From Actinotalea sp. JY-7876 (GTDB taxonomy: Bacteria > Actinomycetota > Actinomycetes > Actinomycetales > Cellulomonadaceae), in NCBI RefSeq assembly GCF_014042015.1, contig NZ_CP059493.1, positions 434,001 to 498,000 on the forward strand: 64,000 bases of DNA. Reading direction: 5' to 3'. The position numbers and the translations under genes are program-made. Shown in pieces: positions 34,380 through 37,259 of this stretch. Below the pieces are notes generated by a model. It was not told the DNA's origin. It saw only the letters and a list, made by a program, of their open reading frames with translations, and searched no databases. Numbering within the stretch: position 1 is the first letter of the stretch; every line of letters begins with the position of its first letter.

Positions 34380-35264
34380 GTGCCGGACCATCCCCTCGAG
34401 CCGCTCGTCGCGCTCGACGGCGTGACGCAGGCCGTGGCCGAGGCCCGGGCGGCGTGCGAGGAGCTGCGCTGGCACCGCGGGCTGCGCCGCCAGTGGCTCG
34501 TCGCCCGCACCGAGTCGGGCGTCCGCTCCGCCCACGCCGGCCTGGCCGCCGACGGCGTCCGCGTGCCGCTCGACGTCGTGCGCGACGTCGCCCGCGGGGC
34601 CGCGACGCCGGGCGGGCCGGACGGCCTCGCCGTCGCCGGCGCGCTGGCCGTGCAGGCGGAGGTCGAGCGCCTCATGGCGGCGCCGGGCGCGACCCGCGCC
34701 GCGGGGTCCGTGCCGCTCGGCCAGCTCCTGCCGCGCCTGCACGCCGTGGGTGGCGGGCCGGCGGCCGGGCGCTCGGACGCGCCGGGCCGCCCGCGCGCGT
34801 CGCAGCCGCCGCAGGACCTGCGGGGTCTCGGACCGGCCCCGGCCGGTGCGGAGCTCGCCGACCGGCTGGCGCTCCTGGCCGAGCTCGCCGCGACGCCGTT
34901 GCCACCGTCGGTGCCCGCGCTCGTGCTGGCCGCCGTCGTCCACGGCGAGGTGCTGGCGCTGCGCCCGTTCGTCGCCGGCAACGGGGCCGTCGCGCGGGGC
35001 GTCCTGCGCCACCTGCTCACGCGCGACGGCGTGGACCCCGTCGGCGTCGTGGTGCCGGACGTGGTCTGGGCGGCCCGGCCCCACGTGCACCTGTCCGCGG
35101 CCGCGCGCTTCGCCACGGGCACGCCGGAAGGCGTCGCGACCTGGCTGCGCCACGTGGCGGGTGCGGTGCGGGCGGGTGCACAGGAGGGGACGCGGGTGGC
35201 GGACGCCGTGGTCGCGCGGCGGCTCGCACCGCCGGACGGCGACCGGGACACCGACGGGCCCTGA
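34380..35264 (+). CDS. Fic-domain-like protein with degenerate catalytic motif
   Basis: A 294-residue mostly helical protein. A motif resembling the Fic signature HPFxxGNGRxxR appears as RPFVAGNGAVARG (around residue 200), preceded by ALVLAAVVHGEVLALR. The catalytic His is replaced by Arg, the acidic residue by Ala and the nucleotide-binding Arg by Ala, so AMP transfer is unlikely. Homologues at this position beside acs/HAD/tad genes in other actinobacteria are often labelled oxidoreductase without support. The middle holds an Arg/Pro-rich linker. The start follows the leaderless -10 at 34367. A strong terminator lies 6 bp after the stop. Confidence 0.6.
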   Translation: MPDHPLEPLVALDGVTQAVAEARAACEELRWHRGLRRQWLVARTESGVRSAHAGLAADGVRVPLDVVRDVARGAATPGGPDGLAVAGALAVQAEVERLMAAPGATRAAGSVPLGQLLPRLHAVGGGPAAGRSDAPGRPRASQPPQDLRGLGPAPAGAELADRLALLAELAATPLPPSVPALVLAAVVHGEVLALRPFVAGNGAVARGVLRHLLTRDGVDPVGVVVPDVVWAARPHVHLSAAARFATGTPEGVATWLRHVAGAVRAGAQEGTRVADAVVARRLAPPDGDRDTDGP

Positions 35265-35270
35265 CGCGAC

Positions 35271-35302
35271 GACGGCGCCCCCGGTAGTCCGGGGGCGCCG
35301 TC
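35271..35302. terminator. Symmetric terminator between convergent units
   Basis: A perfect 14-bp stem (GACGGCGCCCCCGG with CCGGGGGCGCCGTC) has a 4-nt TAGT loop. It can stop transcription from both sides: the Fic-like gene on the plus strand, and the HAD gene or the RNA candidate on the minus strand. Confidence 0.8.
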
Positions 35303-35500
35303 GGCGACAGCTGCGGGAGGAGAGGTATCAGGCGCTTCAGGTACTGCCGCTACGGGGCTAGCCCGGTCGGCAGGTCCGCTCGAGGACAGGTCGAGCGTGG
35401 GTTCTCAGGTCCCGCTGTGCTGTTGTGGTTCATTTCTACGCTCGCTTGCCCGACGAGGGAAGGGACTGAAGTCCTAGGCGTCGCCCGACCCACGGGGATG
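35303..35500 (-). ncRNA. Candidate structured small RNA at the Ms1/scr3559 (6S-like) position
   Basis: A 221-bp non-coding gap between the convergent Fic-like and HAD genes has a base composition unlike its neighbours, with an A-rich stretch (GTAGAAATGAACCACAAC on the minus strand). Two hairpins are visible: CTGCCG/CGGCAG (35344-35370) enclosing GGGC-TA-GCCC, and CGCTCGA/TCGAGCG (35377-35397). CTTCAG at 35335-35340 can pair with CTGAAG at 35466-35471 to close a large loop. A strong terminator follows at 35302-35271 on the minus strand. In M. tuberculosis the abundant RNA MTS2823 (Ms1) lies beside the homologous HAD gene (Rv3661), and Streptomyces scr3559 lies in the matching region. Boundaries are approximate; identity rests on synteny and structure. 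Confidence 0.5.
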
Positions 35501-35523
35501 CCCAGCACGTGGCCGGGACCGTG

Positions 35524-36306
35524 TCAGGACGTGGACCGCCGGTGCCGGCGGACCAGCAGGACGGCCGCGACGGCGGCGACCAGAACCAGCGCGGCGACGG
35601 GGATGGTGCGCCGGGGCTGCGGGAACGAGGGCCGCAGGGCGACGGGCCGCGCGAACGTCAGGACGTCCCAGCCGCGCTCGATCGCGAGCCGGCGCAGGGC
35701 GCGGTCGGGGTTGACGACGGCGGCGCTGCCCACGGACTCGAGCATCGGCACGTCCGTCACCGAGTCGGAGTAGGCGTAGCTGGCCTCGAGGTCGTAGCCG
35801 TGCTCGGCCGCGAGCCGCCGCACCGCCTCCGCCTTCGCGGGGCCGTAGGCGTAGAAGGCGATGCCACCGGTGTAGCGGCCGTCGAGGGTCTCCATCTGCG
35901 TCGCGACCACCCGGTCGGCGCCGAGCAGGGCGGCGATCGGCTCGACCACCTCGGACCCCGAGGCCGAGACGACGACGACGTCACGGCCCGCCGCGTGGTG
36001 CTCGTCGATGAGCGCGACGGCCTCGGCGTAGACGGTCGGCGCGATGTGCAGGTGCAGGGTCTCGGCGACGATCGAGGACACCTGGGCGACGTCCCACCCG
36101 GTGACGAGCGAGGACAGGTGGGCGCGCAGGCGCTCGGTCTGGTCGGCGTCGGCGCGGCCGAGCAGGAACACGAACTGGGCGTAGGCGGTGCGGAGCACGT
36201 CGCTGCGCGTGATCAGCCCGCCCGCGTAGAACGGACGGGAGAAGGCGGTCGCCGACGACGTCGCGATGATCGTCTTATCCAGGTCGAAGAACGCGGCGGC
36301 ACCCAT
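35524..36306 (-). CDS. HAD-IB family phosphatase with C-terminal membrane anchor
   Basis: A 260-residue HAD-superfamily protein of subfamily IB (SerB-like). Motif I is FFDLDKTII, motif II is VVVSASGSE, and motif III/IV is the Lys in GPAKAEA with YSDSVTDVPML. A C-terminal hydrophobic helix (about residues 235-253) and an Arg tail would tether it to the membrane. GGAGGG before the ATG supports the start. Homologues (Rv3661) flank the Ssd/Tad cluster in actinobacteria; the substrate is unknown, and a phosphomonoester or lysolipid is possible. Confidence 0.85.
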   Translation of the reverse strand: MGAAAFFDLDKTIIATSSATAFSRPFYAGGLITRSDVLRTAYAQFVFLLGRADADQTERLRAHLSSLVTGWDVAQVSSIVAETLHLHIAPTVYAEAVALIDEHHAAGRDVVVVSASGSEVVEPIAALLGADRVVATQMETLDGRYTGGIAFYAYGPAKAEAVRRLAAEHGYDLEASYAYSDSVTDVPMLESVGSAAVVNPDRALRRLAIERGWDVLTFARPVALRPSFPQPRRTIPVAALVLVAAVAAVLLVRRHRRSTS

Positions 36307-36506
36307 GTCGCTCCCTCCGCGCCCCTCCCGGACGCTCCGGCCGGCCTCCCGTGAGGGTAGCGAGCCGGCGCCCTGCCGGGAGTCGCGGTGATCGTCATGT
36401 CCGGGTCGTCCCCAGTCCGGGGCCTTCGGGCGTCGTCCCCAGGCCCGCGGGTCCTTCCGTCGTGCCGCGCGACGGCGCCGCCACGCTGCTCGGCGGAGGT
36501 GGTGCG

Positions 36507-37259
36507 GTGCGAGCGCGGGTGGTCGTCGTGGTGGGGGCGTGCGGCGGGGTCGGGGCGTCCACGCTCGCGGCCTTGCTCGCGCTGCGCGCGGTGCGCGCCG
36601 GGACGAGTCCGGTGCTCGTGGACCTCGCCGCGACGGGCGGCGGGGTCGACGTCCTCCTGGGCACGGAGGACCTGCCGGGGGTCCGCTGGCCGGACCTCGC
36701 GCACGTGCGGGGTGCCCTCGCCGGCGCCGATCTCGACGGCGCGCTGCCGACGTGGCGCGGCGTGGACGTGCTCGGCGGTGACCGGCGCGGCGGTGCCCCG
36801 CCCCGGGCAGCGGTCGAGGCGCTGTGGCCCGCCCTGGAGGAGCGGTACGGCGTCGTCGTCGTGGACGCCCCGGCCGCCGCGCTGGCCGACGATGCCGTGG
36901 GCGGCGTGCTCGCGACGCGGCCCCACCTGCTGCTCGTCACGGGCCAGGACGTGCGCGGGGTCGCCGCCGGGCTGACGGCGGCGGCCGGGCTCGAGGCGGG
37001 CGGGGCTCCGGGCGCGCAGCTCGTGCTGCGGCGTCGGCGGTCACCGCGCGTCGCGCCCCTCGAGGCGGCGCAGGTCCTGGACGCCCCCCTGCTCGGGCTG
37101 CTGCCCGGCGACCGGCGCGTCGCGGCCGCCGTCGACCGCGGCTTCGGGCCGTGGGTGCCCGGTCGCTCGGCGCTCGCCCGGTCGGTCGAGCGGGTCGCAC
37201 GGGGGTGCGGGATCACCGGGCCGGTGCGCGGCGCCCGCGGCAGGGGCCGGCGTGCCTGA
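36507..37259 (+). CDS. CpaE/Ssd-like MinD-type ATPase of the tad locus
   Basis: A 250-residue ParA/MinD-superfamily protein. The deviant Walker A is VGACGGVGASTLAALLALRA; VLVDLAATGGGVDVLLG follows as switch I, and VVVVDAPAAALADDA as the Walker B region. It lacks the N-terminal receiver-like domain of full CpaE/TadZ, as is common for actinobacterial Ssd (septum site-determining) proteins. GGAGG seven bases before the GTG at 36507 sets the start; the frame is open to 36351. Its last 8 bp overlap the TadA gene. It probably positions the pilus or secretion apparatus at the cell pole or septum. Confidence 0.8.
   Translation: MRARVVVVVGACGGVGASTLAALLALRAVRAGTSPVLVDLAATGGGVDVLLGTEDLPGVRWPDLAHVRGALAGADLDGALPTWRGVDVLGGDRRGGAPPRAAVEALWPALEERYGVVVVDAPAAALADDAVGGVLATRPHLLLVTGQDVRGVAAGLTAAAGLEAGGAPGAQLVLRRRRSPRVAPLEAAQVLDAPLLGLLPGDRRVAAAVDRGFGPWVPGRSALARSVERVARGCGITGPVRGARGRGRRA

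Follow-up and report, generated by a model that had tools for sequence, protein, structure and literature searches.

6S RNA binds the sigma holoenzyme of RNA polymerase. By contrast, the tested members of the Ms1 family are reported to bind mainly core RNA polymerase that lacks the main sigma factor (PMC4191392, PMC9130861). RIP-seq in Streptomyces coelicolor found scr3559 to be about 1250-fold enriched with RNA polymerase and about 45-fold with HrdB (PMC11077062). In Mycobacterium smegmatis, the 5' end of Ms1 is an adenine mapped by 5' RACE, and removal of the central bubble reduces RNA polymerase pull-down; in 33 species of Mycobacterium, Nocardia and Rhodococcus, no part of Ms1 is as well conserved as the bubble with its adjoining helices, and most Ms1 genes are transcribed toward the origin (PMC4191392). 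Ms1 has been predicted in 824 species of 146 genera, Cellulomonas included, on the basis of gene order (with phrases including HAD, Fic and CpaE) and BLAST between gaps (PMC9130861). Because no similarity between the S. coelicolor and M. smegmatis RNAs is detectable by BLAST, members outside the Mycobacterium group were found by gene-order text search, and no Ms1 was reported in Geodermatophilales (PMC9130861). A phylum-wide bubble motif or promoter of Ms1 was not found in the accessible part of PMC9130861, nor is one announced in the titles and abstract openings searched. CoRP RNA of Corynebacterium glutamicum is likewise an actinobacterial RNA-polymerase-binding RNA, but it is 516 nt long and lies between tRNA genes (PMC11077062).

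We analyzed the gap between a Fic-like ORF on the plus strand and an HAD-IB hydrolase gene on the minus strand in a window of 64,000 nucleotides (the whole stretch of DNA examined) from Actinotalea sp. JY-7876. This gap very probably holds the compact-form Ms1 RNA of this lineage, which, judging from its relatives, would store core RNA polymerase by means of its bubble. The RNA is a member of a known family, and its presence here is to be expected. The gap was found as the sequence-only reading had described it, except that it comprises 259 nt (35265–35523) and not 221; it is bounded on the HAD side by the HAD-IB stop codon (35524–35526, minus strand). Past the HAD gene lies a CpaE/Ssd-like gene (TIGR03815, 141.7 bits, below its cut-off of 154.45), followed on that side by a TadA-like ATPase gene (TIGR03819, above the cut-off), and a malic enzyme gene is located on the far side of the Fic-like gene. 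The RNA lies at 469.4 kb of the contig on the minus strand and dnaA at 1432 on the plus strand; the RNA gene therefore points toward the origin, whose position is inferred from dnaA. No Rfam family scored above its cut-off in the window; within the gap, weak matches to microRNA families and rne-II were seen, every one of them on the terminator hairpin. The features are listed in Table 1.

Table 1. Features of the Ms1 locus and its flanks, in window coordinates (R1 and R2, covariance models described in the text)
Feature	Position	Strand	Remarks
Ms1 RNA, about 160 nt	35268..35426	-	R1 and R2 matches (own sequence in both training sets); fold z -6.3; boundaries predicted
-35-like box CTTCCC	35457..35462	-	CTT[C/G] at equal spacing in relatives
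-10-like box TAGAAA	35433..35438	-	TACAAA in many relatives
Predicted transcription start, A	35426..35426	-	spacing to -10 as for the first base of the RF02566 model
Intrinsic-terminator-like hairpin	35270..35303	-	arms 35270-35284/35289-35303; 15-bp stem, 4-nt loop, no U run
Central bubble, 5' strand (ACCCACGC..)	35393..35402	-	ACCCAC invariant in 57 sequences; pairs also in RF02566
Central bubble, 3' strand (GCGCCUGAUA)	35326..35335	-	C-G-C, U-G and U invariant in 57 sequences; pairs also in RF02566
Closing helix, 5' strand	35404..35423	-	covarying helix
Closing helix, 3' strand	35307..35324	-	covarying helix
First apical hairpin GUCC/GGAC	35374..35387	-	RNAalifold consensus
Second apical hairpin	35344..35373	-	RNAalifold consensus and window fold
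HAD-IB hydrolase gene	35524..36306	-	directly upstream of the RNA; TIGR01490 200.1 bits, cut-off 98.3
Fic-like gene, convergent	34380..35264	+	PF02661 19.2 bits, below cut-off 24 (weak); predicted start codon

The -35-like and -10-like boxes are separated by a spacer of 18 nt, and the same spacing was observed in the aligned rows of Cellulomonas-type, Streptomyces-type and mycobacterial loci. In mycobacterial loci, the RF02566 model begins at an A that is the seventh base past the -10 box, and we placed the predicted start of the window RNA at the A that has the same spacing. Conserved elements appear in the 20 aligned gaps in the order CTTCC box, GGCGTACAAAGGA and then the RNA; upstream of the -10 box, the CTTCC box is the sole conserved element of the 21-row alignment, and in the rows of the DNA search the conserved block mostly starts near 35441 rather than at the HAD stop. 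At least 10 matches to a 13-base -10 consensus were found in 38 of 69 loci, compared with 23 of 1380 random stretches from the same loci, some of which may include a real box. The -10 box of the window itself is a weak match (9/13, a score also reached by 87 of the 1380 random stretches), and the case for a promoter in the window thus rests on the relatives and on the spacing. There are signs in these sequence comparisons that the RNA may form its own transcription unit.

These boundaries alter the picture of a minus-strand RNA spanning 35303–35523 that had been drawn from the window alone: the identity was right, but the predicted ends are at about 35426 and in the terminator (35270–35303), which leaves about 160 nt. 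Promoter and spacer take up the first 97 nt of the former interval, and its A-rich patch is not a structural part but corresponds to the -10 box and the 5' end of the RNA. The perfect terminator repeat that had been noted is present, with a stem of 15 bp instead of 14, and lies almost wholly outside the former interval. Compensatory changes occur in this stem among the relatives, and the hairpin could also serve the convergent Fic-like gene.

The folding energy depended strongly on the boundaries. For 35268–35426, none of 200 shuffled sequences folded as well as the actual one, and without the terminator the corrected transcript still gave a z of -2.5 (3/200 shuffles as good). The interval 35303–35523 folded no better than shuffled sequences (z +0.64, 144/200), and with the terminator added it gave a z of -2.2 (3/200). 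Hairpins had been proposed for this region and are indeed present; the first hairpin of the consensus is the one formed by GUCC/GGAC, whereas a CGCUCGA/UCGAGCG-type hairpin, which belongs to the minimum-energy fold of the window itself, is absent from the RNAalifold consensus.

The strongest support for a structured RNA is covariation. A DNA search of 99 relatives, with the genome itself included, gave 21 matches, and 20 gaps were aligned after L021 had been dropped (no HAD found in the locus and no motif); L011, which has no HAD match but the full motif, was kept. RNAalifold predicted 37 pairs, of which 13 show compensatory changes. In a wider set of 57 sequences (order-level, Streptomyces-type, f24 and two f31 sequences), the consensus again contained the closing helix, the bubble pairs and two hairpins; 85.4% of the cells pair, compared with 75.6% in shuffles, and 178 cells are changed on both sides, compared with 67.7 ± 6.8 (reached by 0/500 shuffles; no slid control exceeded 92), a comparison in which the structure, being derived from the same alignment, is favoured over its slid versions. 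Weaker measures on these sequences gave 15 pairs changed on both sides versus 13.6 (114/500 shuffles as high) and 46 further pair types versus 41.8 (19/500). Among the matches in named loci, whose alignment was fitted to the model (41 matches in 40 distinct rows, four of them weak and probably due to chance), 114 cells are changed on both sides versus 38.9 ± 5.1, and all five measures exceeded the shuffles (at most 1/500 as high). When 108 of 109 sequences were anchored on the motif, with the motif letters fixed by the search pattern and the helix letters free, the six pairs beside the bubble were standard in 81% of cases in the right register, compared with 39–47% in shifted registers (90 distinct helices); L160 has no match to the pattern, and the set no longer contained L042 and L059. 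The long-range closing helix that the sequence-only reading had considered possible is thus present and covarying in both the 57-sequence and the motif-anchored tests.

The same reading had suggested a covariance model of the homologous gaps and had identified the RNA as the Ms1 orthologue on the minus strand. We built two such models, R1 from f1 sequences only with the terminator included, and R2 from 57 sequences without mycobacteria (no f22 members); the window's own sequence is part of both training sets. Streptomyces-type (f21) and Mycobacteriaceae-type (f22) are inferred labels, the latter backed by Rfam Ms1 matches. L042 and L059, which the motif pattern had missed and which were left out of R2 training, were both matched by R2 afterwards. 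In local searches, R2 matched 10 of the 11 f22 loci (E from 2e-6 to 3e-4), including, at the same place, all six loci above the Rfam Ms1 cut-off, and gave a weak match in the eleventh (L079, E 0.035); R1 matched all 11 Streptomyces-type gaps (five at E < 0.01, the weakest at E 0.076). For named loci, R2 matched 37 of 80 HAD loci at E < 0.001, all on the HAD strand and all located 97–502 nt beyond the point where the HAD match ends. These comprised 18/18 Mycobacterium loci, none of which is in the training set, and 8/8 Streptomyces/Kitasatospora loci, which may overlap with training genomes. In the strict whole-genome mode, R2 recovered the locus in only one of 11 f22 genomes (G341), a weak match in another (G382) lying elsewhere than the Ms1 locus, and matched 11/11 Streptomyces-type genomes, 10 of them in the training set.

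A direct match of RF02566 to the window did not materialize (none at E ≤ 10 in 35000–35800). By cmscan, this model exceeded its cut-off in six of 18 HAD loci and scored below it in five more f22 loci; of four Streptomyces-type loci it missed three at E ≤ 1, and the fourth (L066) reached 26 bits (E 0.0076) against a cut-off of 162 bits. We did not treat the lack of a match as defining, because the model misses three of these four loci, although the Streptomyces RNA is accepted as Ms1 in print. The model comparisons show the window RNA to be homologous to Mycobacterium Ms1 and to the RNA in the Streptomyces-type gaps, and its orthology is upheld since local searches with a mycobacteria-free model locate the Rfam Ms1 loci correctly, with the same neighbouring gene, promoter and bubble.

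The central bubble is nearly invariant in sequence, with the signature ACCCACGCG and CGCYUGRUA. RF02566 has six pairs between the strands ACCCACGCG and CGCUUGGUA; these include all four bubble pairs of R1 (Cellulomonas-type gaps) and all five of R2, RF02566 having one more. The register of the closing helix is identical in RF02566 and the Cellulomonas-type gaps. Ms1/MTS2823 (RF02566) and the window RNA agree in the HAD-IB neighbour, the promoter-like boxes and their spacing, the terminator, the direction toward dnaA, the closing-helix register, the bubble strands (ACCCACGCG and CGCYUGGUA, with common pairs) and a hairpin beside the 5' bubble strand. They differ in size: RF02566 spans 304 nt, about 60 of which form a 5' hairpin and about 100 an arm, whereas the window RNA is about half as long as mycobacterial Ms1, lacks the 5' hairpin and has a second hairpin of 30 nt. 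The comparison with scr3559/Str13 was made through the Streptomyces-type gaps and named Streptomyces loci, not the S. coelicolor sequence itself; these share the HAD neighbour, the -35 and -10 boxes, the bubble strands and the closing helix, but the distance from the predicted start to the bubble is about 80–84 nt in Streptomyces-type loci versus 24 nt in the window RNA.

In the order sample, R1 matched 73 and R2 76 of 248 genomes, R2 at one place per genome. Opposite-strand terminator palindromes scored up to 26.7 bits as spurious matches of R1; the match in L026 (G310) was judged to be of this kind, and second R1 matches in G034, G042 and G561 were not confirmed by R2. In the phylum sample, R2 matched 22 genomes at E ≤ 0.001, and in 18 of them the match adjoins HAD and shares its strand; the training set contains 14 of the 18, but not G256, G198, G137 and G341. 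G076 and G061 gave strong matches without HAD; they belong to the same order and to the training set, and have Fic and TadA genes nearby. The matches in G316, G179 and G210 (E from 8e-4 to 2e-3) are probably due to chance: none has HAD within 1.5 kb, those in G179 and G210 have no closing helix, and that in G316 keeps ACCCACGCG without the usual 3' strand. Among the other seven matches at E 0.001–0.1, only G107 lies beside HAD. Outside the class, five genomes of two families have matches 21–199 nt behind HAD on its strand with recognizable bubble and helix: G119 and G134 (f31) were found blind by R1 and then put into training, while G198 (f31), G137 and G107 (f33; G107 at E 0.0024) were matched without being in training, the 3' bubble strand being more diverged in f33. 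The named loci MGR_bin305 and MAG113 behave like f31/f33, MAG113 probably being the G137 genome; at least these two are metagenome bins, and class membership is an assigned label. At E < 0.001, R2 matched none of seven Geodermatophilus/Blastococcus/Modestobacter loci and none of 13 loci labelled Acidimicrobi-, and no motif pair with at least 5/7 helix pairs was found in these two groups, where some loci end 400–600 nt past HAD. Outside these groups, L147 has 5/7 helix pairs without the rest of the motif. Two MAGs labelled Geodermatophilaceae (L155 and L186) carry the RNA behind HAD; these labels may be wrong.

No HAD was found within 1.5 kb in 15 of 31 order-level loci. We re-read 20 order-level places (14 of these 15 and six new ones) together with flanks of at most 7 kb apiece, those of L199 and L204 being shortened by contig ends. 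HAD was present in three, all among the six new places; 15 without HAD keep TadA, Fic or malic-enzyme genes, and L204 and L213 have none of the four genes nearby. In L197–L203, L205–L210 and L214, from several families of the order, HAD is not recognizable near the Ms1 RNA and a TadA-like (tad pilus) gene remains. The RNA lies beside HAD in inverted orientation in three of 53 loci with HAD (L036, L049 and L056), which indicates that the RNA gene is able to invert independently of its neighbour.

The inverted and HAD-less loci bear on the possibility that the RNA is no more than the 3' tail of the HAD mRNA, a fragment stabilized at a shared bidirectional terminator. Its position directly behind HAD on the same strand would agree with such an origin, as would a terminal palindrome that also suits the convergent gene, and the weak promoter box of the window counts against the Ms1 reading and slightly favours this one. 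However, HAD and the RNA are separated by promoter-like boxes whose sequence and spacing are conserved, the bubble and helix are under RNA-level constraint, and both the inversions and the order-level loci without HAD speak against an mRNA tail; we consider this explanation very improbable. That the structured RNA in the gap is a cis-acting element (a riboswitch or attenuator) of a neighbouring gene is scarcely credible, since the next gene is convergent and none directly follows on the strand of the RNA, its homologues adjoin different genes, and the Rfam search of the window gave no family above its cut-off.

It is also unlikely that the RNA is a true 6S RNA, in which the bubble would imitate an open promoter, bind the sigma-A holoenzyme and serve as a template for short product RNAs. 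The gross shape is the same (closing stem, central bubble and apical part), the length is close to that of 6S RNA, and the minor fraction of scr3559 with HrdB in the S. coelicolor RIP-seq (PMC11077062) would fit. Against this, no sequence relation was found: RF00013 had no match in the whole genome, while the same model matched in five of 14 control genomes, and the homology is to Ms1, whose tested members are, as reported, bound mainly to core free of the main sigma factor (PMC4191392, PMC9130861).

As an Ms1 RNA, the window RNA would, by analogy with its Mycobacterium and Streptomyces relatives, accumulate when growth stops; its bubble would replace melted DNA in core RNA polymerase that has no sigma factor and so keep free core in store, and the RNA would be released on the return of the main sigma factor. 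Because the bubble strands are almost fixed while the surrounding helices change freely, we infer that core polymerase may read the bubble bases and that the arms of variable length (the 5' hairpin and the long arm) may be dispensable. More tentatively, and with slightly more doubt than assurance, we propose that Ms1 is one ancient family of the actinobacterial phylum, that core RNA polymerase recognizes fixed bases in ACCCACGCG/CGCYUGRUA and not just an open duplex, that the compact form is near the smallest working unit, and that the family extends beyond the class (f31, f33) and beyond HAD-linked loci. What is added here is the bubble signature, the common promoter, the HAD-less and inverted loci and the HAD-adjacent matches in five genomes outside the class. 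The comparison reveals what is invariant in Ms1; the signature, promoter and covariance model make the family easier to find from sequence without annotation, and the compact form offers a naturally small RNA for structural studies of how sigma-free RNA polymerase is held by an RNA.

Two minor observations concern the surroundings and the fold of the RNA. On the far side of HAD, Mycobacteriaceae-type and Streptomyces-type loci carry 6C RNA (RF01066), the match in Streptomyces-type loci being near or just under the cut-off; no 6C match was found in the corresponding gap of the window (36290–36620), and none above the cut-off anywhere in the window, which has kept Ms1 while 6C is absent or unrecognizable. 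At the inner edge of the closing helix, the bases corresponding to 35403 and 35325 are most often C/A (47 of 108 sequences), followed by A/C (17), A/A (15) and U/G (13), and form a Watson-Crick pair in only 11 of the 108; they are perhaps a conserved wobble-type pair.
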